Shown here: in pieces, positions 8,022 to 37,369 of the stretch
How the letters are laid out: every line of letters begins with the position of its first letter
Position numbering within the stretch: position 1 is the first letter of the stretch
Assembly (NCBI RefSeq): GCF_022271405.1
Contig: NZ_JAJNAL010000025.1
Span: 1-64,000, forward strand
DNA from: Rhodopseudomonas infernalis
GTDB taxonomy: Bacteria > Pseudomonadota > Alphaproteobacteria > Rhizobiales > Xanthobacteraceae
Reading direction: 5' to 3'
DNA: 64,000 nucleotides
Notes under the pieces: model-generated
What the model saw: the letters and a program-made list of their open reading frames with translations, nothing else
The model's database searches: none
What the model was told of the DNA's origin: nothing
Made by a program: the position numbers and the translations under genes

Positions 8022-8990
8022 ATGCAACGGTTGAACGTGGTCGTCGTGGCGGCCGTGCTGCTCGCCTCGACAGCGCCGGCCTCTGCCGATCCGGCGCTGT
8101 CGCTTCCGATCGCCTGCACGGTCGGCCGCGATTGCTACATCCAGAACTACGTCGATCACGATAGCACCGCCGGCTCGCAGGACTATCATTGTGGCCCCCG
8201 CACCTACGACACGCACAACGGCACCGACTTTCGACTGCCCGACACGGCCACGCAGCGGCGCGGCGTTGCGGTGCTGGCGGTCGCCGATGGTGTCGTCGAA
8301 CGAACCCCGGATTCGATGGCCGACATCTCCACCCAGACCACCGGCCGCGCGGCGGTGCGTGGCAAGGAGTGCGGCAACGGGCTCGTCATTCGCCATGCCG
8401 ACGGGTGGACATCGCAATACTGCCACCTCGCCCACACCAGTCTCGTCGTCAAACCGGGGCAACAAGTGAAGTCGGGAGACAAGCTCGGCCAGGTCGGGCT
8501 GTCGGGCGATACCGAGTTTCCGCATGTTCACGTCAGCATCCGCAAGGACGGCAAGATCGTCGATCCGTTCGCCTACCCGGACAGCGCGAGCTGCGGTCCT
8601 GGGCAGTCGCTCTGGCAGCCGGCGCTGCAGCCGCAGCTGCAATATCGCCCCACCGAAGTGCTCAATGTCGGCTTCTCGTCGCAGACCGTCACCATGGAGT
8701 CGATCGAACAGGGGCAGTCCAACGAGCTCTCCAAAGACGGCCCGATCATCGCCTATGCCCGAACCATCGGCCTGCGCGCCGGCGACGTGCAATCGTTGAA
8801 GGTGACGTTGCCGGACGGCAAGACCCTGGTGGAGCGGACCTTCCCGCCGTCGGAAGGCAACAAGGCCCAGGCCTTCATCGCGCTCGGCAAGCGCAACGCC
8901 GCCGTCACCGGCCGCCTCAGCGCGACCTACACCATCACCCGCGACGGCGCGGACGTGCTGCAGCGCAGTTTCGACGCCGACTTGAACTAG
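8022..8990 (+). CDS. Secreted M23-family (LytM-like) metallopeptidase
   Basis: 322 aa with a Sec signal peptide (residues 1-23, cleavage after SAD or ASA). The M23 zinc site is visible as H-x-G-x-D (THNGTDFRLP) and the later H-x-H (FPHVHVSI); an intermediate conserved block contains IRHADGWTSQYCHL. The family cleaves peptidoglycan cross-bridges in the periplasm or acts as a degenerate activator of amidases; here the zinc ligands are all present, so activity is expected. About 140 C-terminal residues form a second, beta-rich domain of unknown role. The gene is monocistronic and is followed by a palindromic repeat. Confidence 0.88.
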   Translation: MQRLNVVVVAAVLLASTAPASADPALSLPIACTVGRDCYIQNYVDHDSTAGSQDYHCGPRTYDTHNGTDFRLPDTATQRRGVAVLAVADGVVERTPDSMADISTQTTGRAAVRGKECGNGLVIRHADGWTSQYCHLAHTSLVVKPGQQVKSGDKLGQVGLSGDTEFPHVHVSIRKDGKIVDPFAYPDSASCGPGQSLWQPALQPQLQYRPTEVLNVGFSSQTVTMESIEQGQSNELSKDGPIIAYARTIGLRAGDVQSLKVTLPDGKTLVERTFPPSEGNKAQAFIALGKRNAAVTGRLSATYTITRDGADVLQRSFDADLN

Positions 8991-9019
8991 TCGAGGGGAG
9001 CTACCCCGTCCCCCTCTTG

Positions 9020-9066
9020 CGTCATTCCGGGTCTACGCCGCTGCGCAGCGCATTCCGGAATGACGC
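9020..9066. repeat. GTCATTCCGG palindrome
   Basis: GTCATTCCGG at the left and CCGGAATGAC at the right form a hairpin around a GCTGCGCAGC core. The same arm sequence recurs in the repeats near 9.46 kb, 11.4 kb and 45.34 kb. Confidence 0.65.
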
Positions 9067-9269
9067 ACAGGCTGGTTCCGGCTGGTGAGTGATGGCGGTG
9101 AGCCCGCTGGAGTTCGGATCAAGCGAAGCGAAATCCATGGATCGGCGGGCGTAACAGGCGCAAGGTGGAGCGATCGACGCCGGGCTGCGGCCGTGAGTCG
9201 TCGATGCGATGCCGATCGAACCGATCGCCGCCAAGTTACGTCCCGTTTCACATCCAACAGGAGACCGCT

Positions 9270-9407
9270 ATGGCCAAGGGCGAGCAAAAGGGTAATCGCG
9301 AAGTCAAGAAACCCAAGAAGGAAAAGGTCAAAACAATCGCCGCCGCGCCGAGCCAGAAGACCGGCGGCTGGCAGCCGACCCAGGGTGGGACCGGCAAGAA
9401 GAAATAG
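9270..9407 (+). CDS. Small lysine-rich basic protein
   Basis: 45 aa, about a third Lys/Arg, ending in Gly-Gly-Trp and GTGKKK-type residues. ATG at 9270 is preceded by AGGAG six bases upstream (9260-9264), a strong site that supports translation despite the short length. The sequence resembles small conserved basic proteins of rhizobial genomes; I know no function. It has no membrane segment and could bind nucleic acid. It sits alone between two palindromic repeats. Confidence 0.65.
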   Translation: MAKGEQKGNREVKKPKKEKVKTIAAAPSQKTGGWQPTQGGTGKKK

Positions 9408-9460
9408 CAGACGAGGTCGAGGCAATCAGGTCAGGGACGGATTCGCTTGCGACTTCTTGC

Positions 9461-9598
9461 TCGTCATTCCGGGGCGCGTCGCAAAGCGACGCGAACCCGG
9501 AATCTGTATTCACGGGTGAACGGAGCGATATCCGGGAGTCGGAAGCGCTTCGACGAGACTCCCGGGTGTCGCTTCGCTCACCCGGGCTGCGCTCGCTA
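9461..9598. repeat. Composite palindromic repeats (two families in tandem)
   Basis: The first unit has GTCATTCCGG with inner inverted GCGTCGC/GCGACGC and ends AACCCGGAAT. The second has GGGTGAACGGAGCGATATCC facing CTCCCGGGTGTCGCTTCG and CACCCGGG. Both lie between a small gene and the convergent O-methyltransferase gene and code for nothing visible. Confidence 0.65.
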
Positions 9599-9614
9599 GG
9601 GCTGCAAGCTGGCG

Positions 9615-10310
9615 TCATCCGACCCGCACGGTGAATTCGTTGCCGCGGCCTTCGTCGATGTCGAGCGACTGGGAGAAGTAACCGTTGGCGGGCGTGCGGA
9701 CGTAGTCGAGATAGTCCTGCGCGAAGGCGTTCTCCCCGAGGATCACGGCGCCGGGCGTCAGCCGTGGCTCGATCAGTTTGAGCATCGGCAGGTACAGCGA
9801 AAACGCGCCGTCGATCGATAGAACATCGACCTCGCCGCCGATATCCTTGAGCGTTTCGAGCGCATCGCCCTGGCGGATCTCCACCAGATCGGCAAGCCCG
9901 GCCGCTTCGAGGTGAGCCCGCGCCCGCGTCACCTTGGTAGGTTGCAACTCGGAGCCGATCAGCTGTCCGCCGCCATTGTCGCGCAGCGCAGCCGCAAGGT
10001 AGATCGTCGAGACCCCCATCGACGTGCCGAACTCGACGATCCGGGTCGCCCTGCGGGCGCGCACCATTGCGTAGAGGAAGCGGCCATAGGCCGGAGAGAT
10101 CGCCAGGAAATGATCGGCGTGATCCCGATACATCGTTCCGTAGTTCGCCCGCTCCTCGTCGATGAATTTGGCGGCCGCATCCTTCAGCGTTGCGCCGGCC
10201 GCCTCGACCTTCGCCATCATCTCGGCCATCAGGCCGCGATCGGCCGCTTCGGCATCGGCGTGGAGTTTGTCGAGCGTCTCTGCGACGCGCTTGCTGCTCA
10301 GTGACGTCAT
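9615..10310 (-). CDS. Class I SAM-dependent O-methyltransferase
   Basis: 231 aa. An N-terminal helical cap (about 75 residues) precedes the Rossmann domain: motif I VEFGTSMGVSTIYLAAAL (about residues 92-109), an acidic loop GSELQPTKV, then EIRQGDALETL and the motif IV-like VDVLSIDGAF. This layout matches the catechol/caffeoyl-CoA O-methyltransferase family (methyltransf_24). The substrate is unknown. It is divergent from an AraC regulator at 10447; the 136-bp space probably holds the shared promoters, so the AraC protein may control it. Confidence 0.82.
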   Translation of the reverse strand: MTSLSSKRVAETLDKLHADAEAADRGLMAEMMAKVEAAGATLKDAAAKFIDEERANYGTMYRDHADHFLAISPAYGRFLYAMVRARRATRIVEFGTSMGVSTIYLAAALRDNGGGQLIGSELQPTKVTRARAHLEAAGLADLVEIRQGDALETLKDIGGEVDVLSIDGAFSLYLPMLKLIEPRLTPGAVILGENAFAQDYLDYVRTPANGYFSQSLDIDEGRGNEFTVRVG

Positions 10311-10446
10311 GAAAGTCCCTTTCGGTGATGCCGTGACCGTTTCGGCCTCGACTATCCGTGTGCGTAAAGGGACGTCGTCCTGGCGTCATTCCGAAGTCTG
10401 GACAAATTGTTATCCAGTTACGCCAGACCGCATGGTAGATTGAACG

Positions 10447-11265
10447 ATGCCCATCCTTACAGACAGCTCCTCTGCGTCCGACTGGACCGAACCCGACGAG
10501 GTCGCGCGCCCGGTCGTTACCTACGGGATGGAATCGAACAGGATCAGCTCGTTCGAGCTCGACCCGCACTGCCATGCCAAAAGCCAGATCATGCTGGTGC
10601 AGCGCGGCGCGCTGAGTTGCCGGGTGGAGGGCGGGCTGTGGATCGTCCCGCCGCGTAGCGCGGTCTGGATCCCAAGCGGCGCGATGCATGCCATCACGGC
10701 GACCGGCACGCTCGAAGGCTACAGTGCGTTCGTCGCCGCCGACATCGATGCAGGGCTACCGCAACGCTGCTGCAGCGTCTCGGTGACGCCGCTGCTCCGC
10801 GAACTGCTGTTCCGGGCCGCCCGCCTGCCGTTGTTGTACGACGAGGGCGGCGTGAATTCGCGATTGATCGCGGTGTTGCTCGACGAGATCGCGGCTGCCG
10901 AGATCGAGGACCTGCATCTGCCGATGCCGGTCGATCCGCGGCTGCGCACCCTGGCCGACCTGATGATGACCGCGCCCGCCGACCGCGGCTCGCTGCAGGG
11001 CTGGGCGGAGCGCGCCGGGATGAGCGAGCGGACGCTGGGGCGGCTGATCAGCCGCGAGACCGGAATGAGCTTCGGGCGCTGGCGGCAACAACTCGGCGTC
11101 ATGCTCGCCGTGCAGTGGCTGGCCGGCGGCGCCTCGATCCAGCAGGTGGCCGCAGACCTCGGCTACGAAAGCGTGCCGAGCTTCGTCACCATGTTCCGCA
11201 AGACGCTGGGCACGTCCCCGGGCCGCTACATGGCGGAGCGCTACGCGGGAAGAAGTGCGGGGTGA
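10447..11265 (+). CDS. AraC-family transcriptional regulator with cupin sensor domain
   Basis: 272 aa. The N-terminal half is a cupin-like ligand domain (HCHAKSQIMLVQRGALSCRV and the following PPRSAVWIPSGAMHA). The C-terminal 100 residues are the double helix-turn-helix AraC domain: LQGWAERAGMSERTLGRLI, then IQQVAADLGYESVPSFVTMF and RKTLGTSPGRY. The effector is unknown. It lies back-to-back with the O-methyltransferase gene, its most likely target. Confidence 0.88.
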   Translation: MPILTDSSSASDWTEPDEVARPVVTYGMESNRISSFELDPHCHAKSQIMLVQRGALSCRVEGGLWIVPPRSAVWIPSGAMHAITATGTLEGYSAFVAADIDAGLPQRCCSVSVTPLLRELLFRAARLPLLYDEGGVNSRLIAVLLDEIAAAEIEDLHLPMPVDPRLRTLADLMMTAPADRGSLQGWAERAGMSERTLGRLISRETGMSFGRWRQQLGVMLAVQWLAGGASIQQVAADLGYESVPSFVTMFRKTLGTSPGRYMAERYAGRSAG

Positions 11266-11407
11266 TAGGCGAGCGTAGTTCGACCGCAGCGACCGGTTTC
11301 TGTCGCAACGTGCGGACGGGTGGGCGGACACGTAGGGCGCAGTTCGGTTGGTGAACAGATGGCGGTGCGTTTGGAGGGCCTGACCGCAATAGCGCCCGCC
11401 CCTCTTT

Positions 11408-11560
11408 CGTCATTCCAGGGCGCCCGCACTTGCGGGCGAACCCGGAATCCATAACCACCCGCGTCGCGACAAGGCGTAGGCCGGATGAGCGCAGCGATCC
11501 GGGGCGACGCATCTGAATCGAATCCCGGAGATCGCTGCGCTCACCCGCGCTAGGCTGGCC
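11408..11560. repeat. Tandem palindromic repeats
   Basis: Unit one has CGTCATTCCAGGGCGCCCGC and its GCGGGCGAACCCGGAATCC partner. Unit two has GGCCGGATGAGCGCAGCGAT facing CCCGGAGATCGCTGCGCTCA. They occupy most of the 372-bp gap (11266-11637) between the AraC gene and the antitoxin gene; I see no other feature in this gap. Confidence 0.6.
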
Positions 11561-11637
11561 AGCGAGAGCATTGGTGATTGACCACAACGGCCGGCATCCT
11601 ATTCTAGCTAGACTTCGAGCCAGATAGGTCCACCGAG

Positions 11638-11895
11638 ATGGCCGAGCGCAGCTGGTCAGTGCAGGACGCCAAGAGCCGCTTCAGCGAGGTCATCGAAGCC
11701 GCGCGCCAGAGCCCGCAAACCGTGACCAAGCACGGTAAGCCTGCCGTCGTTGTGGTCGACGTCACCGAGTACGAACGCCTGCAGCAACTCGACCGCGCCA
11801 GCGCGCCGTCGTTCGCCGATGTGCTGCTGGCCATGCCGCAGGACGATGGCGAATTTTCGCGCGACGCCGTCCGGATGCGCGATCTCAATCTGTGA
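11638..11895 (+). CDS. Phd/YefM-type antitoxin (orphaned)
   Basis: 85 aa. The start WSVQDAKSRFSEVIEAARQS and the following VTKHGKPAVVVVDVTEYERL are the classic Phd/YefM fold (N-terminal DNA-binding dimer). The C-terminal tail (residues 55-85) is the flexible toxin-neutralising part, ending ...DAVRMRDLNL, which is typical of partners of PIN-domain VapC toxins. Its stop overlaps a downstream ATG (TGATG), as in intact pairs, but that toxin frame ends after nine codons. The antitoxin is therefore probably an orphan that may still bind DNA. Confidence 0.88.
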   Translation: MAERSWSVQDAKSRFSEVIEAARQSPQTVTKHGKPAVVVVDVTEYERLQQLDRASAPSFADVLLAMPQDDGEFSRDAVRMRDLNL

Positions 11896-11924
11896 TGTTT
11901 CTGATCGACACCGGTATCGACTAG
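11895..11924 (+). pseudogene. Remnant of a VapC-like PIN toxin (first nine codons)
   Basis: The ATG overlaps the antitoxin stop and encodes M-F-L-I-D-T-G-I-D before TAG. M-F-L-I-D-T is the usual opening of VapC toxins, with Asp5 as the first metal-binding residue of the PIN domain. Homology ends where a palindromic repeat element begins (11929). No continuation of the toxin is visible beyond the repeat, so the gene was deleted or replaced from that point. Confidence 0.7.
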
Positions 11925-11928
11925 TTCG

Positions 11929-12020
11929 CAGGGCGGTTAGCCGAAGGCGTAACCCGCCGACAGCCGCAGGGGCTTGTCTCGGCGTAATGGCGGATTACGC
12001 TGCGCTAATCCGCCCTACGG
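11929..12020. repeat. GGGCGGTTAGC palindromic element interrupting the toxin locus
   Basis: Arms AGGGCGGTTAGCCGAAGGCG and TGCGCTAATCCGCCCT are inverted around a 30-bp centre, with inner GTAACCCGCC and GGCGGATTAC copies. The element begins directly after the ninth codon of the toxin remnant and ends eight bases before the next gene's start codon, so it lies at the junction of two unrelated sequences. Confidence 0.65.
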
Positions 12021-12028
12021 GTTGCACG

Positions 12029-13018
12029 ATGATCATAGTCCCTAATAACAATGACCGCTGGCAATTGCTCACGCCGCGCAACATCGCCGTAAGGCGGCTA
12101 TGGGGATGGGGCTATTCGGTGCAAAAAATACTCGCGGCATCAGAGCCGAAGCCTCGCGAAAGCGCGTCGCTCGTCATTGCGTCGGATTTTGGCGGTGAGC
12201 ACAAACATGCCACGCATCTCATCTACTGCTACCTTCTCGTGCGTGGTGGTATGCGCGATTGGCTGTCCTCGACAGCGGCTGTTCGCAGACACCTCACCGA
12301 CACACGTAGAATGGCCTACAAGCGGCTCGATGATCGGTTGCGGCAAAACGCACTTATACCTTTCCTAACCGCAGCTGCGGGACTCGATGGGCATCTCGTA
12401 GCAATAGCTATTGATAAGAGAAAGAAGTGGCTATCAACTGCGCCGGGCTCTTCGGATCGATTGCTACGCGAACTGAACCTGAACGCAACCTGGAACGCGC
12501 GTGCATTGGAGGGCATGCTCCGAAAAGTCCACATCACGGCGATCCTGCTTTCGCTTTGGTCGCGCCCCCATAGCAACGTCACATGGATCACGGACCAGGA
12601 CGAATTCGTTGCGAACGATTTGCGTCATGATGATGCTCTCTTAGCCGCTGCGCGGTACTCGTCGTTCTACATCGACCACCCGATGGGCGTCTTTCGCCTC
12701 AATACCACGGGGCAAGACGCGGATGCGGGCGACTTTGAAGACATATGCGCTGTTCCGGACTTGGCTGCTGGCATGTTGTCTGACGTTTCGACACGACTTC
12801 GAAACAGGGGGGCGGAAGACAGGCTCTGGAAGCTATCTTCGGACCTTCCACCTAAGGCCGAGGTCATCGCCGATTGGTTCTGGGACGACGCCATGGTGCT
12901 GCGAAAGACCCTCATCTCGATCGACGTGCATGGTGACAAGTTTGGGGTTCGCAAAGTGTCGATGATGATGCAATCGCCAGACGACCAATCGGCTATCTCT
13001 CCAAACGAACCGCTATGA
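12029..13018 (+). CDS. Uncharacterised protein, possible RNase H-like fold
   Basis: 329 aa from the ATG at 12029. The base composition is clearly less GC-rich than its neighbours (codons such as ata, tta and tat are common), suggesting horizontal transfer. I do not recognise the family. Three acidic spots are spaced as in RNase H-like or DUF3800-type proteins: ASDFGGEHKH on a predicted first strand (about 50), TWITDQDEF (about 190) and ICAVPDLAAGML (about 240), the last resembling the D-L-x-A-G helix motif of DUF3800. Proof of a nuclease fold would need structure prediction. No Shine-Dalgarno is obvious, and the start lies beside a repeat. Confidence 0.6.
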   Translation: MIIVPNNNDRWQLLTPRNIAVRRLWGWGYSVQKILAASEPKPRESASLVIASDFGGEHKHATHLIYCYLLVRGGMRDWLSSTAAVRRHLTDTRRMAYKRLDDRLRQNALIPFLTAAAGLDGHLVAIAIDKRKKWLSTAPGSSDRLLRELNLNATWNARALEGMLRKVHITAILLSLWSRPHSNVTWITDQDEFVANDLRHDDALLAAARYSSFYIDHPMGVFRLNTTGQDADAGDFEDICAVPDLAAGMLSDVSTRLRNRGAEDRLWKLSSDLPPKAEVIADWFWDDAMVLRKTLISIDVHGDKFGVRKVSMMMQSPDDQSAISPNEPL

Positions 13019-17667: not shown

Positions 17668-17743
17668 TGGTGGGCCCGGCAGGACTCGAACCTGCAACCA
17701 GACCGTTATGAGCGGCCGGCTCTAACCATTGAGCTACAGGCCC
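17668..17743 (-). tRNA. tRNA with CAT anticodon (Ile2 or Met)
   Basis: 76 nt with encoded CCA. The acceptor stem GGGCCTG/CGGGCCC, D-arm GCTC...GAGC, anticodon stem GGCCG/CGGTC with loop CTCATAA, and T-arm GCAGG TTCGAGT CCTGC all pair. The anticodon CAT means either elongator Met or the lysidine-modified Ile2 that reads AUA. The short D-loop AATGGTTA resembles the Escherichia coli Ile2 tRNA more than its elongator Met, so I favour Ile2. It is transcribed in the same direction as the methyltransferase and metK genes. Confidence 0.93.
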
Positions 17744-18059
17744 CGCCGGGCGCCGCGAGGCGGCGGACGGTGCGGGGACGGCATACAATGGCGGGGTCGG
17801 CGCGGCAATGTTTGGCTAAGGCGAGCTGGAGCATTGGGTAACATCTGTGCGCAGAACAAAAATGCCTGGCGATTGAAGCCGGCACGAGCCCGCGGCAGTG
17901 ACCGAAGCACAGATCGTTCGAGCGGACTGGAAGAACGCCATACAAGGCACCCGACCAGTTCGGGCCCGGTGCACAGACTCGACAATGCGCCTTCGACAAG
18001 CCGAGGCAATGCGGCTGACGAAAGCCACCGTCGACGCATGTCCTGATTGGCGCCGGCCC
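17744..18059. other. Gene-free stretch between tRNA and aldoxime dehydratase gene
   Basis: 316 bp. Short open frames here run in several directions without ribosome sites or recognisable content. It should contain the tRNA promoter near 17750-17790. I see no repeat or terminator with a T-run. Confidence 0.5.
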
Positions 18060-28658: not shown

Positions 28659-29426
28659 TCAGACGGCCTTGGCCAGCTTCCGCACAACCTTGCGCGGCTT
28701 CGGCACGAGATCGCGGCGCAACGCGAAGCAATTGCGCTGATAGTGGAACTCGGCGACGTAGATCGCCACATTGGCGCTATCCACCAGCACCAACCGGCAA
28801 TCCGCCGTCGGCTCGCCGAGCCCGACGCGAAGCAGATCAGCCGTTTCCCAATCGGCGACCCCGATCGTCACCGTCTGCAGCGCATGCGCGACGTCGATAT
28901 CGGGCATCTCCATGATGCGCGGCAGCGCCGGCTTGCGATTGAAGGTGCGGCGATCGCGCAGATAGATGTCGCGCGCGAGCCGCAGATTGGCGACCGCAAA
29001 CGGCTCGCCCCGGCTGAACTGCACGCTGCGCAGCTGCACGTAGTCGGCCGCCCGCACGCCCTCACCGTCCCGCAGCAGCGGCGCCGCGGCATGCTCGTCG
29101 ATGCTGACGATCTTGATGACGTTGTCGCGCACCGAGTCGATGACGGATTCGAGATCGTTGGCGAGATTGAACCAGTGCTTCTCCTTGGGACGCCCGGACA
29201 CGAACGTGCCCTTGCCGCGGATCGACTCGACCAGCCCATCATCGCGCAGCAGATCCAGCGCCTGCCGCACCGTGATCCGCGCCACCTTGAACTCCGCCTC
29301 CAGCTCCTCGATCGTCGAGATCTTGTCGCCCTCGCTCCAATGCCCACTCTCGATCCGCTGCCGCATCACCGATGCGACCTGCAGATACAGCGGCACACGG
29401 TTACGATCACGGTCTGGGTTGCGCAT
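28659..29426 (-). CDS. GntR/HutC-family regulator with UTRA domain
   Basis: 255 aa. The N-terminal winged helix contains LYLQVASVMRQRIESGHWSEGD and then the recognition region EAEFKVARITVRQALDLLRDDGLV, with the wing RGKGTFV. Residues 90-240 form the UTRA effector domain (chorismate-lyase-like fold). HutC-type regulators bind small acids or aromatic compounds. A perfect 19-bp palindrome lies 115 bp upstream of its start, suggesting autoregulation. The nearest likely target is the SDR/Rieske operon on the other strand. Confidence 0.9.
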   Translation of the reverse strand: MRNPDRDRNRVPLYLQVASVMRQRIESGHWSEGDKISTIEELEAEFKVARITVRQALDLLRDDGLVESIRGKGTFVSGRPKEKHWFNLANDLESVIDSVRDNVIKIVSIDEHAAAPLLRDGEGVRAADYVQLRSVQFSRGEPFAVANLRLARDIYLRDRRTFNRKPALPRIMEMPDIDVAHALQTVTIGVADWETADLLRVGLGEPTADCRLVLVDSANVAIYVAEFHYQRNCFALRRDLVPKPRKVVRKLAKAV

Positions 29427-29540
29427 GAAGGCAGCTTCTCGTGTGTCTTCGGGAACGATTGCGGCGACGTATCCGGCAGCGGCCCCGCTCGGCTGATCCG
29501 ATGTGCGACTATAACGGTTTCGCCGACCCGAAACATCCCA

Positions 29541-29559
29541 AAGTCTTTATAATAGACTT
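29541..29559. promoter_or_regulatory. Perfect 19-bp palindrome, probable GntR operator
   Basis: AAGTCT-TTATAAT-AGACTT is an exact inverted repeat with a 7-bp AT-rich centre, in the promoter region of the gntR gene. The TATAAT inside could serve as a -10 box, so binding would block transcription. A degenerate copy with the same spacing lies upstream of the SDR gene. Confidence 0.6.
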
Positions 29560-29620
29560 AATTAGGCTGGGGGCTCTTGGCGATCCCGCCCGGCGAGGGT
29601 GAGGGGACCATCTCTTCTTG

Positions 29621-29782
29621 AGTTATCACCCGCAGAAAATCACCGGGCGCTATCTTGGCGCGGCCATGAAAGACGAGGACAAGAACGGGATCATCGCCAA
29701 GACGAACGCCAGCAATCCCGGCATCGCGATCTTCCAGTGCAAGCGCGATGCGAAGGGGCGAGTTACGTCTGTGCGGGAGTGA
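29621..29782 (+). pseudogene. 3' remnant of an unidentified gene at the island edge
   Basis: An open frame of 53 codons without an N-terminal start reads SYHPQKITGRYLGAAMKDED and continues to ...DAKGRVTSVRE before TGA. An internal ATG at 29666 would leave 38 residues, but no ribosome site precedes it. The codon pattern and amino-acid content look like true coding sequence, so I read this as the tail of a gene whose front was lost where the low-GC island begins. I could not name the family. Confidence 0.35.
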
Positions 29783-29810
29783 CGGGGTCCAGGCTAGTTG
29801 CCTTCGGATA

Positions 29811-32438
29811 CTATGCAACTGCGATTTTCTGTAAGGCGGTCGCTTCGACCGTCGATACGGCGTAATGTGCGTTGCGGCCCAACCGCATTGCCAGCCAAAG
29901 ATCGTCGAGGGCCGACTGAATATCGGCGTCGTGGGTCGCAATCGTACCGAGATCCATTCCGCTGCAATAGGTCTCTGCCGGCGAACGAGGCATGACTTCC
30001 CAACCATGGGACATCCACAAGACCGAGCCGGCTTTGTGCAAGGCACTACGTCCGGCGCGCCCCGGATTGGCGCGGTCCCACTGCTGCAAGCAAGCCGTCA
30101 ACTTCGCCATGGCCTGCGCCAATACAGGAGCTCGTTCGCTTATCGCAAAGGTCGCACCGCGAATAATGACGTTCTGGGACAACATGGTTTTTTGGTCGGG
30201 ATGGGACATTGCGACGAGGTCTGTGCAGCGTTCGACTTGCGAGATCGCGTCCGCTTGTTGGACGAGGGCTCCGACCGATCGGGCCTCCGGCTTGGCCAGC
30301 GCGGCGAGGAGAACCGTGTTAAGTGCGCCGTCGCCCACAAATTTAAGAAATTCTTCACGCGGTTCACCGGTTGCGTACCGGGTCTGCACTTGCCGGAAGA
30401 GGCCCTTCGGTTTGCCGGGACCGTAGGGCTTTGAGAACATGATCTGAACGACGCGGCACGCAATCGATGCGAGCGCATCGTCCTGAAGCCACCCCTCTTC
30501 GCTCCCCTTGGCGCCGAGCAGAATGGGAAAGACGAGCGCCTGCGCCAACGTGGCGGGCGGGCATCTTTCTGCAAAGCTCGGCTTCGCCAAGCCAAACAGG
30601 AATGCCTCGATCTCCCTGCGCAAAGTTGCCATCGCCTCGGCATCGCTTCTCGGGACTGGCGTCTGCTCCGGCGGCGGTGGAGTTCCAGTCGGTTTCATCC
30701 CCGATGTGGCGCCATCTTCGTATTGCTCCGGCTCGTCGGCGCCCCATCTTTCCTGAGAAAGGTCGACTTCCGGATCGTCCTCTGAAGAAAAGAGAAGCGC
30801 TATTATCCCGCTCAGCGATACGCCGTGCATCTTGTGTTGGCCAGGCGCGTTGGTTACGTGCTTCCCAGCCTGATCGCTGATGCGGTAAGTCAGCTTCGAA
30901 GGATCGACAGGACCTGCCGCCTCCTCGTCTTCATCCGCGCCGGTTTCCTTTTCATTTGGTTCCCGGCGTTCCGGACCCAAGTCGGACAAGTCTGGCGTTT
31001 CGCAATTGAAGAGGCTCGTAGAAATCGAGTAGATCGCCTCCATGATCCGCTGCTCGCTCGCCCCTGCGAAGCCGCGGCCCGAAAATACGCTGTGGTTGGG
31101 ATCGGTCTCCCGGCCGCGAGCACCGTTTTCGATCGCACGGTCGTTGTCGAGCCAGCGTGATTGCGTCACGATGACATCTGCGTTCGACGGAATTTCCATC
31201 GTCCCGAAGACGGTCTCGGCCCCCAGCGATATCTCTTCGGAAAGTCTCCCGGTGAAGCGATTGTTGGATCGCTTCATGGGAACCCGATACTTCTTTCGGT
31301 CGATCTCGAAGACGAGTGTGGCGCTATCCTGATCCGGAGTGGGTTCGACGACGGCCTCGATCGTGCGTCCTGATTCCCTTAAACGGAGGCTTGTGAGGCG
31401 GTAGATCTCACCATCGGCGGCATTGCCGGGCAGTTCCTCCAGCTTCACCGGGGCAGTAAGAACATCCTCGGGCAAGTGTTCTTCGCCATCGAAGTCGGTG
31501 AGGAGCGGTACGAAGGCGGCGCGATCCGGCGTGTCGTACACGGTGATCAGTTCGATATTCCCGTTGGCGTGATTTGCGAGCCAAGCCGCTGCCGAGCAGT
31601 TCGCGGAACCCATCACAGCCGCATCGCCGTCAGATCCCGAGAACCAGCAAAGTTTTGCGTGCATGCGGCGCTTGGGATCACGCTGCACGAAGCGCACGTC
31701 GAGCGGTAGCTTGGCTAATTGCTTCGCATCGAACGAAGCGAAAGACGGCGTAACGCAAATGGTAGCTTTCTTCACCCCGAAGGTGTCATGTGCCCAGCGA
31801 AGGAACGCGCCGTCGACGTCGGTCGATCCGGTGTACATTTTGAGCGTTGCAAAGCGACGTCCTGACCATCGGCGCGCCAATTGCGGGGCAAGCGGGCGGC
31901 CCGGCATGCCGAGAAGAACAGGAGTTGCAGCGGCTTCCGACGCCGCTCGGCGTAACCATGGAAGCGATGCGCCGACTTCCTCGATCTGCGATCGGAAGGA
32001 TTCCGCGCCGGTCAAGCTTGCAACCGAACGCAATATATCGAATAGCCACGCACCGCTATCGGTCGAGCCAGGGCCGATCGGCCAAGCGACGGCAAGCTCG
32101 TGGTTGCCGCCCCAACCGGTATAGGTGAGATTGCCGGAGCCGATCCAGACTTTGCCACCCTCGGGCGAGAGGCGGACCATCAACTTCGGATGGAAAAGGT
32201 TCGAAGGATTCGCCTCCGCCAGCGTGTACTTCCGCCCAAGATGGAAGATCTGTCCCGCGCATCGCTGGATGGCTCCCCCGATCTCGGAGGCGTCACCCAA
32301 GACCAAAATGCGGCGCGTTCCGCCTACGCCCAGATCTTCATACGGGATGCGCTCGAAGAACAAGGGATCGAAGGCATAGGTCAAAAATATCGCGACGGAA
32401 TAACCGGGCTCCTTGCAAAAGTCGCGTGCACTGATCAT
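29811..32438 (-). CDS. PLD-superfamily nuclease-like protein, 875 aa
   Basis: Two phospholipase D motifs are clear: H83-x-K85 with G-S-G-N (100-103), and H260-x-K262 with G-S-A-N (277-280). As in nuclease-type PLD proteins, the usual Asp of the HKD motif is replaced by the G-S-x-N block. About 560 further residues follow the PLD core, including an acidic stretch near 480-500 (EPNEKETGADEDEEAAGPVD) and a helical C-terminus. Start ATG overlaps the upstream gene's stop by four bases (ATGA), so translation is coupled to the 533-aa partner. The lower GC content and the adjacent PD-(D/E)XK gene suggest a mobile, possibly defensive operon. Function not established. Confidence 0.8.
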   Translation of the reverse strand: MISARDFCKEPGYSVAIFLTYAFDPLFFERIPYEDLGVGGTRRILVLGDASEIGGAIQRCAGQIFHLGRKYTLAEANPSNLFHPKLMVRLSPEGGKVWIGSGNLTYTGWGGNHELAVAWPIGPGSTDSGAWLFDILRSVASLTGAESFRSQIEEVGASLPWLRRAASEAAATPVLLGMPGRPLAPQLARRWSGRRFATLKMYTGSTDVDGAFLRWAHDTFGVKKATICVTPSFASFDAKQLAKLPLDVRFVQRDPKRRMHAKLCWFSGSDGDAAVMGSANCSAAAWLANHANGNIELITVYDTPDRAAFVPLLTDFDGEEHLPEDVLTAPVKLEELPGNAADGEIYRLTSLRLRESGRTIEAVVEPTPDQDSATLVFEIDRKKYRVPMKRSNNRFTGRLSEEISLGAETVFGTMEIPSNADVIVTQSRWLDNDRAIENGARGRETDPNHSVFSGRGFAGASEQRIMEAIYSISTSLFNCETPDLSDLGPERREPNEKETGADEDEEAAGPVDPSKLTYRISDQAGKHVTNAPGQHKMHGVSLSGIIALLFSSEDDPEVDLSQERWGADEPEQYEDGATSGMKPTGTPPPPEQTPVPRSDAEAMATLRREIEAFLFGLAKPSFAERCPPATLAQALVFPILLGAKGSEEGWLQDDALASIACRVVQIMFSKPYGPGKPKGLFRQVQTRYATGEPREEFLKFVGDGALNTVLLAALAKPEARSVGALVQQADAISQVERCTDLVAMSHPDQKTMLSQNVIIRGATFAISERAPVLAQAMAKLTACLQQWDRANPGRAGRSALHKAGSVLWMSHGWEVMPRSPAETYCSGMDLGTIATHDADIQSALDDLWLAMRLGRNAHYAVSTVEATALQKIAVA

Positions 32439-34036
32439 GACTTTTCCAGCGTTGCGAGGGACCGGTCGAGAACGCGTTTGCCGGATTTCGTCAAGCCATC
32501 TTCCGAAGTGAGTTTGAGCTGTTCCAGCCAGTCAATCGACATCGGAAGGCGTGAGCCCGTGCGACCCGGCCTGAAGGCGTTGTTACGAGACCAGGCCTCC
32601 GTGTCGGCGATCAGAACAGACACATCTTTGCCGCGCAGCGCTGAGAAGCGGCTCCATGCAACGCGAAGATGCTGCTGCACCGTTCGCAGGACGAGTTCGG
32701 CCATGACATCGCGATAGCTACGGTCGTCGGCAAGAAACCCCGCGATCTTCGGACGTATCACGGCATCGATGCCGATTTGAAACGGGAAAATGCTGCCGAG
32801 ATTTACAGATTGCTGCGCGCCGGCATCGCTGTCCTTCAAGGCGCGCTGGCAGGAAAGACACCACACAACGGGTAGCAGGGCGACTGCCGCATCGCCCGAC
32901 GTTCCGGCATATTCATAAAGCTCGGTTTCGGACAAGCCACCTCGCCAACGGGCTATGCCGCTCGTTTCCACGCGGTCCCTGCGAGATCTTCTTTGTACGC
33001 GCTCATAGACTGTCCGAAAGGACAACTCATGGGCCGCTTCGCCATCCAACAAGAGGCGGAACGTACGCAGCGCCTCGTCCTTTTCCGTGGAGCCGGCGAC
33101 GAGGGATGCAACGACTTCGCTAGAGAGCGCAGGCGAGCACTGTATTTGGAAAACGCTGTCTACCTCGCGCATCACGGCCGCGAATACGTGTTCGTGACAA
33201 ACCGCGAGGCAATCTCGCACGACAAAGGCGAGGAAACCGTCCAAACTCTGAGACAGGCAGGTCGGAAGACCTTCAGGCGGGCGTTGTGACGCTTCGAAGA
33301 TATCGGCCTCCTCGATGGGCCGTTCGTTCTTTTGGGTCAACCATAGGAGCAGCGCATAGTGGCGCAAGCGCCGACGCTCTGCTGCATCCGCAGGTCTTTT
33401 TGGAACGAGAGCATCGATCAGAATGTTGCGCTCGCCGCGCGGTATCGCGATGATCGACATTGCCTCAGCAAGCTCTTCAAGTTCGTCGCGGTTAATTTCG
33501 TCGGTAGTCGGCTGTTTCGTGAGGCGCGCGCCATAAGCGGTCCCTTCCAACACTTTGTCGAACTCTTCGGCAAGCGCGATTCCTCGTTCTTCACTGAGCT
33601 CGTTGAGCCCGTGCTTCGCCGGGCGCGTGAAATTCAATTGACGACTCGACGCGATGTAGGCGTTTAATGCGATGTTTTGCGTAAGCCGTCTCAAGGGCAG
33701 CGTTGCCTCTTCTCGATCGATCTCTTCATCTGCACCGCCAACGCCGACGAGATTGTTTACGGTGCGATCCAATATCCGGTTCGCCATAACGAAAGCGCAC
33801 TCTTGCGCGGCTGCGAACTCGAAGAAGGACGAGCGTTTCTCGGGCAATCTTGCCTTGGCATAACGCCAAATGATCCAGGCGATTACGGACATGTAGCGCA
33901 GCTTCGGCGTGATAGTGGTCACCCCATCGAAAAGGCTATTTCCAATAGACTGAACTGGTGCGCGAAGCCCGAGTAAATCGAGGCCAGCCGTCTCGTCGGC
34001 GTTGTAAGAAACCCATTCCGGTACGGGTATGCTCAT
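32435..34036 (-). CDS. Unrecognised 533-aa helical protein, partner of the PLD protein
   Basis: Starts at the ATG at 34036 (an in-frame TTG precedes it by two codons). I recognise no catalytic motif. It is mostly predicted helix, and its last 50 residues (SIDWLEQLKLTSEDGLTKSG, then KRVLDRSLATLEKS) look like a winged helix ending. There are two Cys-x2-Cys-like spots (WCLSCQ near 400) but no clear zinc finger. The four-base overlap with the downstream PLD gene implies a fixed stoichiometry or complex. A sensor, adaptor or DNA-binding role is possible; nothing in the sequence proves one. Confidence 0.75.
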   Translation of the reverse strand: MSIPVPEWVSYNADETAGLDLLGLRAPVQSIGNSLFDGVTTITPKLRYMSVIAWIIWRYAKARLPEKRSSFFEFAAAQECAFVMANRILDRTVNNLVGVGGADEEIDREEATLPLRRLTQNIALNAYIASSRQLNFTRPAKHGLNELSEERGIALAEEFDKVLEGTAYGARLTKQPTTDEINRDELEELAEAMSIIAIPRGERNILIDALVPKRPADAAERRRLRHYALLLWLTQKNERPIEEADIFEASQRPPEGLPTCLSQSLDGFLAFVVRDCLAVCHEHVFAAVMREVDSVFQIQCSPALSSEVVASLVAGSTEKDEALRTFRLLLDGEAAHELSFRTVYERVQRRSRRDRVETSGIARWRGGLSETELYEYAGTSGDAAVALLPVVWCLSCQRALKDSDAGAQQSVNLGSIFPFQIGIDAVIRPKIAGFLADDRSYRDVMAELVLRTVQQHLRVAWSRFSALRGKDVSVLIADTEAWSRNNAFRPGRTGSRLPMSIDWLEQLKLTSEDGLTKSGKRVLDRSLATLEKS

Positions 34037-34123
34037 GAACAATCAGCCCACTCAGCGGCCGGACACCAAGCGAAGAGACGCCCTCGATCCCCCGTTACGA
34101 AGCCGAAGGCGACGGCCGCGTGG

Positions 34124-34588
34124 CTAGCGCAAACGTTCTGCGGTAGAGAATTCGAGGTCATATTCCCAAAGCTCGACTCCCTCCGGCACAAGATGGCCGT
34201 GAGTTTTCAAGTAATAGGCCGCAAGGCTCAAGTCTTTGCGGTAATGCTTCAACACAAAAAAGACTTTCCGGTATGAGGCCGGTGCAACGTGAAAATAGTA
34301 CATAGCCTCGTTCCACACGGTCATCTTCGCACTCGGCATGTTGCCGCCATGCGTCCATGTGTGGGATTTGCATTCGACAAGCATCGGCGGAGTTTCGCTG
34401 CCGAGATCGAAACGGTGAGATTTTTTCGCCGAGCCGACACCAACCGGCACCGCAAAATTCTTCGTCAGGACGATTCCCTGCGCTCCGAAAAACACCTTCG
34501 CCGCGGCCTCGAAGTCGTTGCCGGCTTGCGTGTTGCTGGTCGCGCCCAGTCTCTGGAAATTGTTATTGTCCATGCAGGCAGATGGCAT
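34124..34588 (-). CDS. PD-(D/E)XK-type endonuclease domain protein
   Basis: 154 aa. The restriction-endonuclease-like core reads Glu26 (GNDFEAAAK), Asp61 (SHRFDLG), then Glu72-Cys-Lys74 (MLVECKS), the D-(x)n-E-x-K active-site pattern on a helix-strand-strand frame. It lies 87 bp upstream of the 533-aa gene on the same strand and has the same lower GC content, so the three genes are probably one operon. A nuclease this small usually needs partners for target choice. An in-frame ATG at 34573 is an alternative start; neither has a strong ribosome site. Confidence 0.75.
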   Translation of the reverse strand: MPSACMDNNNFQRLGATSNTQAGNDFEAAAKVFFGAQGIVLTKNFAVPVGVGSAKKSHRFDLGSETPPMLVECKSHTWTHGGNMPSAKMTVWNEAMYYFHVAPASYRKVFFVLKHYRKDLSLAAYYLKTHGHLVPEGVELWEYDLEFSTAERLR

Positions 34589-35179
34589 CCTTCGGGAGGT
34601 GCAAGGGATAAAAGCACGCTTATATGGCAGTTGGAGCTAGCTACAATCTCGACTATAGTAACAAAGCATTGGCAGTCTCGACGGCCCCCGGGATCGGGGC
34701 CCGACAGCAAATTTTGTCGGCAAAGCCGAACGTTGAGGACTGCCCCGGGTCTCAGCACGGACCCTACCGGCAGACCAGGGCTAACGCGGCAGGATGGAGC
34801 GTTGGCCTATTCCGCGCTTATCAGGCCCCCCGCCGAGGGCACCAGGGAAATCTGACGTGGCGACATGGGATGCCACCTTAAATAAACTTACGGCGGCGAT
34901 AGTCTTCGATCCGGAAGCGGCCACTCTTTCAGGCAGCGTCCGGGATGCTTGCGGACTGCGGCTGCAAGGAGTGGCCAGTCTTCTTCGGAAAGCGTCATGA
35001 AGAACACTTGCAGGGCAAAGTCGTCGCGGACCGCGGTTAGATGTCCCAACACGTCGTACCACACGCGCCCCTCAACACGAATCCGGTGATGAAACTCGTG
35101 CCGGTGCGCCGTCGTTTTGTCAGTCCGTATCCAGGCAGCAAGCTCGGCGCCGTAGTTAGGCGGATCGGCTGCGCCGCCC
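34589..35179. other. Intergenic region at the upstream edge of the nuclease island
   Basis: About 590 bp of mixed composition. A minus-strand frame (about 34888-35205, GTG start inside the end of the MFS gene) encodes KTTAHRHEFHHRIRVEGRVW and continues ...EEDWPLLAAAVRKHPG; this has protein-like composition and may be a gene fragment, but I cannot identify it. The first 80 bp upstream of the nuclease gene are AT-rich and probably hold its promoter. Confidence 0.4.
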
Positions 35180-36424
35180 TCACGCCACCGCCACCCGCGC
35201 CCCACCCCGCCGTGACCTTAGCCATAGCGCGGTGACGATGGTGATGTTGACGGCGTTCCAGGCGAGGCCGTTGAGGAAGGCGGCGGCGTAGGAGCCGGTG
35301 GCGTCGAAGATGACGCCGGAGATCCAGCCGCCGAGCGACATGCCGATCACCGACGCCAGGATCACCAGGCCGACGCGGGTCGCGGCTTCGCTCGCCGGCA
35401 TCGCTTCGCGCACGATGATCGCGTAGGCCGGCACGATGCCGCCCTGGAACAGGCCGAACATCGCCGAGATCAGATACAGCGACGGCAGGCTGTCGAAGAA
35501 CAGATAGAACAGCAGCGCCGTGCCCTGCGCCACCGCGCCGATCAGCAGCGTCGGGATGCCGCCGATGCGATCGGCCAGATAGCCGGAGCCGATCCGGCTG
35601 AGGATGCCGAACGCCAACATCAGCGACAGCATCTCGGCGCCGCGCGCGACGCCGTAGCCGAGGTCGCCGCAATAGGCGACGATGTGGACCTGCGGCATCG
35701 CCATCGCGACGCAGCAGGCGATCGAGGCGACGCACAGGATCACCGTCAGGGTGTTGGTGGGCAGTTGCAGGTCGATCCGCGGCGCCGGCGCGGCGGCGTG
35801 GCTGTGCGGCGCGGCGGCGCGCATCCGGGCGCGCAGCAGCAGCAACGTCAGCGTCATGGCGACGACGCAGAACGCACCGATCGCCAGATGCGTGGCGCGC
35901 CAGCCATAGGTCTGCGTGCCCCAGTTTACCAGCGGCGGCCACAGCGCGCCGCCGAGATAATTGCCCGACGCCGAGATCGTCACCGCGAGGCCGCGGTAGC
36001 GCTCGAACCAGTGCGAGGCCTCGGCCATCAGCGGGCCGAACGTCGCCGAGGCGCCGGCGCCGATCACGAGGTGCATCAGGTTGAACTGCCATTGCGCGGT
36101 CGAAAGCCCGGCGGCCGCATAGCCGAGCCCGATCAGCAGCACGCCGCTGCCGATCGCCGCGACGATGCCGAACCGGTCGGTGAGCTTGCCGGTGACGACG
36201 CCGCCGAGCCCGAAGCCGAGCATCGCCATGGTGAAGGCCAGCGAGGCCGCGCCGCGGCTGGCGCCGAACTCGGCCTGCACCACCGGCAACACCACCACCA
36301 CCGACCACATCCCGACGCTGCCGATCGAGCCAATGGCGAGCGCCAGCGCCAGCCTGATCCAGGCCTGGCGCGAGTCGAGCACGAATGCCGGCCTTGTGCC
36401 GGTCGTTGAATAAGGCGTTTCCAC
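35180..36424 (-). CDS. Major facilitator superfamily transporter (OFA/MCT-like)
   Basis: 414 aa with about 12 membrane spans in two halves joined by a loop (residues 195-215). The A-motif in loop 2-3 is present as GKLTDRFGIVAAIG, and a second copy as GYLADRIGGIPTLLIG in the other half. The SRGAASLAFTMAMLGFGLGG region resembles monocarboxylate or oxalate-formate antiporters. The substrate is unknown, probably a small carboxylate. It stands alone, divergent from a methyltransferase gene. Confidence 0.87.
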   Translation of the reverse strand: METPYSTTGTRPAFVLDSRQAWIRLALALAIGSIGSVGMWSVVVVLPVVQAEFGASRGAASLAFTMAMLGFGLGGVVTGKLTDRFGIVAAIGSGVLLIGLGYAAAGLSTAQWQFNLMHLVIGAGASATFGPLMAEASHWFERYRGLAVTISASGNYLGGALWPPLVNWGTQTYGWRATHLAIGAFCVVAMTLTLLLLRARMRAAAPHSHAAAPAPRIDLQLPTNTLTVILCVASIACCVAMAMPQVHIVAYCGDLGYGVARGAEMLSLMLAFGILSRIGSGYLADRIGGIPTLLIGAVAQGTALLFYLFFDSLPSLYLISAMFGLFQGGIVPAYAIIVREAMPASEAATRVGLVILASVIGMSLGGWISGVIFDATGSYAAAFLNGLAWNAVNITIVTALWLRSRRGGARVAVA

Positions 36425-36661
36425 ACTGCAACTTTGCCGTGAGACGCCGCGCGGTCAAGAGACGCCGGTGGTGCCCCGCTATGCAGGGCGCCGGCCATCT
36501 TGCGGTAAAATGCTCTTGTTCGGCGTCGTCCAGACGGATAACCGCAAGGATCGCGATGCAGCGACTGGGCTGCAGCAGCAACCGTGCCGGCGCGCAGAGC
36601 CTGTCCGGCCGTCGCAGCGCGGCATGGGCACGGCTGGCATCATGATGTTGTGGAGGGTGTG

Positions 36662-37369
36662 GTGAGCAAGTTCGAGAATATGCTGGGCGGAATCGACCTG
36701 AGCGCCTCCACCGGACTCGAGTTCGGCCCGCTGACCTCGCCGATGGTGAGGAAGGGCCAGAGCAACGTCTTCTACATCGATCACGATACGACCGAAGGGA
36801 TCAAGCTCAAGTACAAGGACGATGCCAATGTCGATTGCGACGCGATCGTCCCGATCGACTTCGTCTATCGCAACGACCTGTCGCAAAGCGTCGAAGGCCG
36901 CAAGTTCGACTACATTGTCGCCTCGCATGTGTTCGAGCACATTCCCAATCCGATCAAATGGCTCAATGAATGTGCCTCGGTGCTGAACCCGGGCGGCACT
37001 TTGTGTCTGGCGCTTCCCGACAAGCATCTGACGTTCGATCGGCCCCGGCAGATCACCCAGCTGTCGGAATGGATCGGAGCGCTGCTCGACAAGCGCGATC
37101 GGCCGAGCCCCGCTTCGGTGTTCGAAGCCGCCCGAAGCGCCCTGATCGAGGCGGGATTGCCGCCATCCAGGTGGCCGTACGACCACGCGGCCGAAAGCCT
37201 GGAGCGCTACATCGACGTCCATTGCACGATCTGCACGTTGCAGACGTTCACGGACCTGATCGACGGCAGTCGTAATCTCGGTCTGCAGCCGTTCAGCATC
37301 GTCGCCGCCTTTGAGCCTGAGCCCAACTCGATCGAGTTTCAGGCAAGGCTGAAGAGCCTCGGCGCGTGA
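36662..37369 (+). CDS. SAM-dependent methyltransferase (type 11-like)
   Basis: 235 aa from the GTG at 36662, which follows TGGAGGG; upstream starts lack support. The post-motif I region FDYIVASHVFEHIPNPIKWL and LNPGGTLCLALPDKHLTFDR is typical of methyltransf_11/23 enzymes. The N-terminal GLEFGPLTSPMV replaces the usual E-x-G-x-G-x-G with only one glycine kept after Phe, so cofactor binding may be unusual. Such proteins occur near glycan or surface-polysaccharide genes; none are here. Its substrate is unknown. It lies just upstream of flhA. Confidence 0.75.
   Translation: MSKFENMLGGIDLSASTGLEFGPLTSPMVRKGQSNVFYIDHDTTEGIKLKYKDDANVDCDAIVPIDFVYRNDLSQSVEGRKFDYIVASHVFEHIPNPIKWLNECASVLNPGGTLCLALPDKHLTFDRPRQITQLSEWIGALLDKRDRPSPASVFEAARSALIEAGLPPSRWPYDHAAESLERYIDVHCTICTLQTFTDLIDGSRNLGLQPFSIVAAFEPEPNSIEFQARLKSLGA

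Follow-up and report, generated by a model that had tools for sequence, protein, structure and literature searches.

A conserved gene pair, apparently a divergent relative of ZacA/ZacB, in a cassette inserted in the genome of Rhodopseudomonas infernalis

The window, by which we mean the whole stretch of 64,000 nucleotides analyzed here (Rhodopseudomonas infernalis, contig NZ_JAJNAL010000025.1, positions 1 to 64,000), carries three genes, NUC, MID, and PLD, in a cassette that is inserted relative to congeners. The features, in window coordinates, are as follows.

29562..35183, no strand assigned: cassette inserted relative to congeners G067 and G223 (blastn against L133, L134, and L135; right edge +/- about 25 bp)
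34124..34588, minus strand: NUC, 154 aa, optional third gene encoding a small PD-(D/E)XK-like protein
34367..34408, minus strand: NUC motif D61 to K74, from the alignment of 11 relatives
32435..34036, minus strand: MID, 533 aa from the ATG at 34036, probable distant ZacA/DUF6361 relative
32435-34042, minus strand: longest MID open reading frame, 535 aa from the TTG at 34042
29811..32438, minus strand: PLD, 875 aa, ZacB-like member of the PLD superfamily, its single chain holding two HxK...GSxN half-sites
32130..32192, minus strand: PLD half-site 1, H83 to N103, residues kept in 40/40 pair loci
31599..31661, minus strand: PLD half-site 2, H260 to N280, residues kept in 40/40 pair loci

The three open reading frames are real and lie on one strand, giving the transcription order NUC, MID, PLD. 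As the first-pass annotation of this DNA had it, two of the genes overlap (MID and PLD share 4 nt) and the GC content is lower in the cassette (0.55-0.61) than in its flanks (0.61-0.70, 1-kb windows). Its claim that helicase and methyltransferase are missing is right for the cassette, where none was found, and stops there, a Methyltransf_23 gene being present at 36584-37369, beyond the cassette in DNA conserved among congeners; the gene remnant that it placed at the cassette edge is unproven, the open reading frame at 34888-35205 having no Pfam match at 0.01. All three genes are maintained, since dN (0.16-0.26) is far below dS (1.5-2.1, which is near saturation) for PLD and MID, each compared with its relatives in loci L043 and L044, and for NUC, compared with L044 only. 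A promoter scan was uninformative (1 site vs 1.8 expected).

The GntR-type and MFS genes flanking the cassette are close together in congeners and about 5.6 kb apart in the window. The site could be compared in four genomes, the GntR gene being present at high identity in 4/16 genomes of the genus. In G223 the matching blocks lie about 180 bp apart, making this an empty site, G067 has about 0.9 kb there with a SnoaL gene, and in G207 the site is occupied by a gene in which both GmrSD domains are present (1.4e-33 and 3.7e-24; L134:7647-9452). That a sister species has a restriction gene in this position suggests defense-gene exchange. Together with the empty site and the defense genes found next to several relatives (see below), this finding supports the earlier suggestion of a foreign, probably defensive nuclease cassette. 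No integrase was seen in the cassette, and no long terminal repeats are among those listed for 29300-35400. Elsewhere in G207, on a different contig, there is a canonical Zac locus (L171). On a larger scale, the tRNA-Met stretch at 17668-17809 of the window and the sequence from 35170 onward match blocks that are 32 bp apart in congener L136, where the tRNA-Met stretch adjoins the MFS gene, so that the window from about 17.8 to 35.2 kb appears to have been gained or rearranged beside a tRNA gene. The window also has an IS110-type transposase gene at 434-1555 (Pfam Transposase_20 3.7e-21, DEDD_Tnp_IS110 2.4e-15).

Profile searches with both proteins recovered MID and PLD as adjacent genes on the same strand in 42 loci, the window and 41 others, among which the canonical Zac locus L021 is counted. 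Duplicate or short loci (L001-L009, L013-L015, L031-L042, and L069) were removed before the count, in which the near-identical pairs of L020 and L022 both stand. The genome_contigs scan comprised 26 loci, 20 of which show the pair; as to the others, the pair of L046 was seen separately (PLD reaches the contig end), L054 starts at a contig edge, and L065-L068 have PLD only. By longest-ORF coordinates the MID and PLD reading frames overlap in 40/42 loci, by exactly 4 nt in 24, and are separated by a 2-nt gap in two. The MID and PLD distance matrices of 40 loci correlate with r 0.977, a value reached by 0/2000 permutations (largest 0.29) and one that shared descent of linked genes would also be expected to give. 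The conserved unit is thus the MID-PLD pair and not the NUC-MID-PLD trio.

The three-gene unit proposed in the first-pass annotation was not borne out. NUC adjoins MID in one of the 37 other loci with enough flank, L052, L056, L064, and L088 having less than 0.5 kb before MID and therefore being too short to show it; otherwise NUC occurs alone, which argues against a general three-gene system. That single locus, L044 from a Hyphomicrobiales MAG, is the only one of these testable loci in which the complete trio was found. One could still suppose that NUC, MID, and PLD act together as a true three-gene system and that, where NUC is missing, the locus is reduced or draws on a different nuclease, in keeping with the conserved gene order in L044, where NUC is 78% identical, and with the purifying selection on NUC. 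This is improbable, however, given that the other 36 testable loci have no NUC beside the pair, including the closest relative, L043 (MID 74% identical). Among 296 genomes of the window's bacterial family, moreover, MID is present in 8 and NUC in 18, with only the window's genome and G204 in common, and the NUC match of G204 is a fragment on a different contig from MID. By profile, NUC was found in 2/396 genomes drawn from the phylum.

NUC has no significant family match in Pfam or NCBIfam, and is read as PD-(D/E)XK-like by its motif; weak scores among its 11 relatives are to SfsA (0.1 in 3/11) and Mrr_cat (0.25 in 1/11). The predicted D61, E72, and K74 are where the earlier annotation placed them and are, like E27, invariant in 11/11 aligned relatives, so that the D...ExK motif is conserved. 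Eight examined loci with NUC relatives (L098-L100 and L103-L107) have the gene in a repeated chromosomal place in one genus, in which 12 genomes matched. It stands beside a gene that we take, from its N-terminus, to be dprA-like, and in several of these loci close to genes that by our reading of them are presumably plsY-, pyrC-, and pyrB-like. The repeated place beside the dprA-like gene suggests a role of these relatives unrelated to the MID-PLD pair.

PLD belongs to the PLD superfamily, having two half-sites, a Pfam PLDc_2 match (1.9e-9, above the cut-off), invariant residues, and a matching fold in Foldseek. The predicted catalytic H83, K85, and N103 of the first half-site and H260, K262, and N280 of the second are at the positions given earlier and, with G277, S278, and E296, are invariant in 40/40 pair loci; in the window protein the classical HKD positions are without Asp. 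The model of PLD is of fair quality only (pLDDT 74.6, pTM 0.55), and its best Foldseek match is Tdp1 (2.6e-8), followed by polyphosphate kinase 1 and the restriction enzyme SauUSI (1.4e-4). At about 347-424 the model is mostly strands, forming a beta-sandwich with sub-threshold immunoglobulin-like matches, and residues 442-596 include much below pLDDT 50, as in a disordered linker; the remainder, including the C-terminal part, is mainly helical.

Like Tdp1, whose motif is likewise without the Asp of HKD, PLD has two half-sites in one chain. A Tdp1-like DNA repair pair that frees 3' ends of protein or other adducts, and for which islands are merely the carriers, would account for this resemblance. 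We give that reading very little probability because of the very patchy presence of the pair, its site that elsewhere holds GmrSD, its defense-gene neighbors, and its kinship to Zac, and because SauUSI matches too. In contrast to Tdp1, moreover, PLD is a bacterial protein of patchy occurrence with a beta-sandwich, a disordered linker, a helical C-terminal part, and a linked partner. With SauUSI (7clg) it shares the half-site fold and the HAK...GSSN pattern, the sequence match alone not being significant (E 0.77); SauUSI differs in having its own helicase in the same chain, whereas PLD has none and pairs with MID.

The MID model is confident (pLDDT 84.8, pTM 0.85) and has no structural match at E 0.001 in PDB or BFVD; the MID profile found nothing meaningful among PDB sequences either. 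The match of MID to Pfam DUF6361 (0.023) is below the cut-off of that model. MID had been described as unrecognized, which holds for its fold, with no significant match, and no longer for its sequence, by which it appears to be a distant ZacA/DUF6361 relative.

In PADLOC-DB, where Zac comprises ZacA (PDLC03828), ZacB (PDLC03829), and ZacC (PDLC03830), MID matches ZacA (2.7e-5, over about 63 residues only) and PLD matches ZacB (7e-14), the ZacB model being unspecific, with matches in 5/14 control genomes, and the ZacA model having matches in 0/14. PLD also matches PADLOC DrmC (2.5e-8), a likeness to DISARM that NCBIfam does not share, its DrmC model scoring PLD far under the cut-off (13.1 vs 133 bits). 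We rejected DISARM as the identity of the cassette: among its three proteins only PLD resembles DrmC, and no DrmA, DrmB, DrmD, or methyltransferase was found in the cassette.

A clear Zac locus is present in the window's bacterial family in L021 (ZacA 9.5e-136, ZacB 7e-172, ZacC E = 0), with a ZacC that is a helicase-type protein of 1059 aa. Of the 296 family genomes, 19 have ZacA matches, 12 of them strong (below 1e-40) and 7 weak, the window's being a weak one. Flanks were taken for ten strong ZacA loci besides L021, with G044, another strong match, left out; L167 stops at a contig edge, and ZacA, ZacB, and ZacC stand in a row in L021 and in 9/9 further testable strong-match loci. Upstream of the canonical Zac genes, L021 also encodes two further proteins, one a UvrD-type helicase and the other a second PD-(D/E)XK (PDDEXK_1) protein (L021:9614-15690), an arrangement reminiscent of AddAB, and a relative of this UvrD-type helicase is found near other canonical Zac loci as well.

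The window resembles these loci in the A-B order of its putative homologs, in an apparently DUF6361-related first protein, and in a PLD second protein with identical invariant half-site residues. It differs in that its proteins are longer (533 and 875 aa vs 392 and 686 aa in L021) and match weakly, and in that no ZacC helicase adjoins them: BLAST detected no ZacC in the 64-kb window, neither directly downstream of the pair nor elsewhere, and a helicase profile, which was built from five positives and found those five alone, had no match there. Over 39 loci of the window type, including the window itself, the ZacC BLAST found L019 (directly downstream) and L029 (weak), and the small helicase profile from five loci also indicates L018 and L027, the latter's helicase belonging to a Zorya locus; more divergent helicases could escape both searches. 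The ZacC matches of L019 and of L173, both of which are weak-tier ZacA matches, suggest a sub-branch that keeps the helicase.

Judged by sequence, the window type is predicted to be a longer, divergent Zac branch, mostly without a detected helicase. The earlier remark that no described system has this composition therefore needs qualifying: the pair has a database relative in PADLOC Zac, and it is indeed very divergent and without the Zac helicase. A literature search found no paper on ZacA/B/C or DUF6361; preprints were outside its scope, and one may well exist. The candidate system to which the pair is related is known here from a database alone, and the window holds a variant of it that is real and under-described, not a new three-gene system.

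The pair is patchily distributed, with MID in 8/296 genomes of the family and, by profile, in 10/398 of the phylum. Plasmid records include a MID relative in five cases and a PLD relative in 22, 8 of which are typed conjugative or mobilizable. We rejected a phage-borne origin, since nothing in 50,697 phage records matched PLD at 1e-5 or NUC at 0.01, and viral_contigs yielded no confirmed MID or NUC relative.

The named defense neighbors of relatives were picked by eye, with no matched control. They include GajA/GajB (Gabija) alongside L044, which with L043 is one of the two closest relatives, Qat genes in L011, type I RM in L025, a DrmD-type helicase in L018, and ZorA, EH-signature, and SNF2 genes (Zorya) in L027; some pair loci, for example L010, show no clear defense gene. 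PADLOC scans covered 136/506 called neighbor ORFs (on each side, two of at least 180 aa, for loci other than the window, L022, and L046), and the most often matched models, again with no matched control, include RM, GajB, WYL, ZorD, and DrmD, the DrmD and ZorD counts of 3 probably being the same few helicases hit by several models. In the closest relative an SspA-B-C-D phosphorothioation operon is divergent from the pair, with SspA about 250 bp from MID.

L043:1749-8149 and 8403-12661, divergent blocks: pair/Ssp region, with SspA-B-C-D beside the nearest MID-PLD relative

This arrangement would fit a pair that serves as the restriction effector of a separate DNA modification system such as Ssp phosphorothioation, as would a DndC-like gene about 5.6 kb away in L090. 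HKD nucleases near Dnd genes have been described (PMC10853773). Such a role is nonetheless decidedly improbable, Ssp being one close case in 41 other loci; SspC, besides, was not found in the window's own genome, in a search in which 14 controls were equally without a match.

An AbiEii-type gene near L030 is in keeping with an abortive infection module, in which a phage signal would cause the nuclease to kill the host. A nuclease effector with a possible sensor is a common design. We regard abortive infection as a rather unlikely account of the pair, one that the present data do not separate from direct restriction.

On balance we favor, with some reserve, an anti-invader module of two genes that is mobile and belongs to a distant ZacA/ZacB branch, usually without a helicase, in which the PLD nuclease would be licensed by MID. 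The genes themselves, their linkage and co-variation, the conserved active sites, the insertion site, and the neighborhoods are observed; we infer nuclease activity, the targeting of foreign DNA, a sensor role for MID, and any anti-phage effect. PLD would be a phosphodiesterase whose single chain carries the HxK...N half-site twice, as Tdp1 and SauUSI do. In the PLD superfamily two His residues act by way of a covalent phosphohistidine intermediate, for which no metal or ATP is required, and PLD would be expected to cut DNA in this way. MID would be its obligate partner, probably the sensing or DNA-binding subunit, by which PLD would be licensed only where the DNA is foreign or abnormal; NUC, upstream of the pair in two loci and not part of the core, would be an accessory nuclease where present. 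As the cassette has no motor, selectivity must come from MID, from the C-terminal part of PLD, or from an outside signal. More tentatively, and with less than even likelihood, the pair may represent a widespread undescribed family of helicase-free two-gene restriction systems, with a Tdp1-like nuclease independent of metal and ATP and gated by a foreign-DNA sensor of new fold, canonical Zac being the branch in which a motor was gained (or kept).

In several restriction-like systems, namely SauUSI, PbeA, and canonical Zac, the PLD nuclease works with a helicase; for a linked, co-varying PLD pair that has no motor, one must ask how the nuclease tells foreign from self DNA. For this discrimination the obvious candidate is MID, whose confident model has no significant match in PDB or BFVD. 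With its two genes the pair is a compact test case, and natural relatives of it occur across many bacterial groups and in one archaeal MAG, the labels among the 26 genome_contigs loci including Hyphomicrobiales, Janthinobacterium, Rhodocyclaceae, Bacteroidales, Hydrogenedentota, Calditrichia, Neomarinimicrobiota, Clostridium, and an Archaeoglobaceae MAG. The label of L043, "Frankia sp. RB7", is doubtful, the same genes being present in G204, which is assigned to the window's family.
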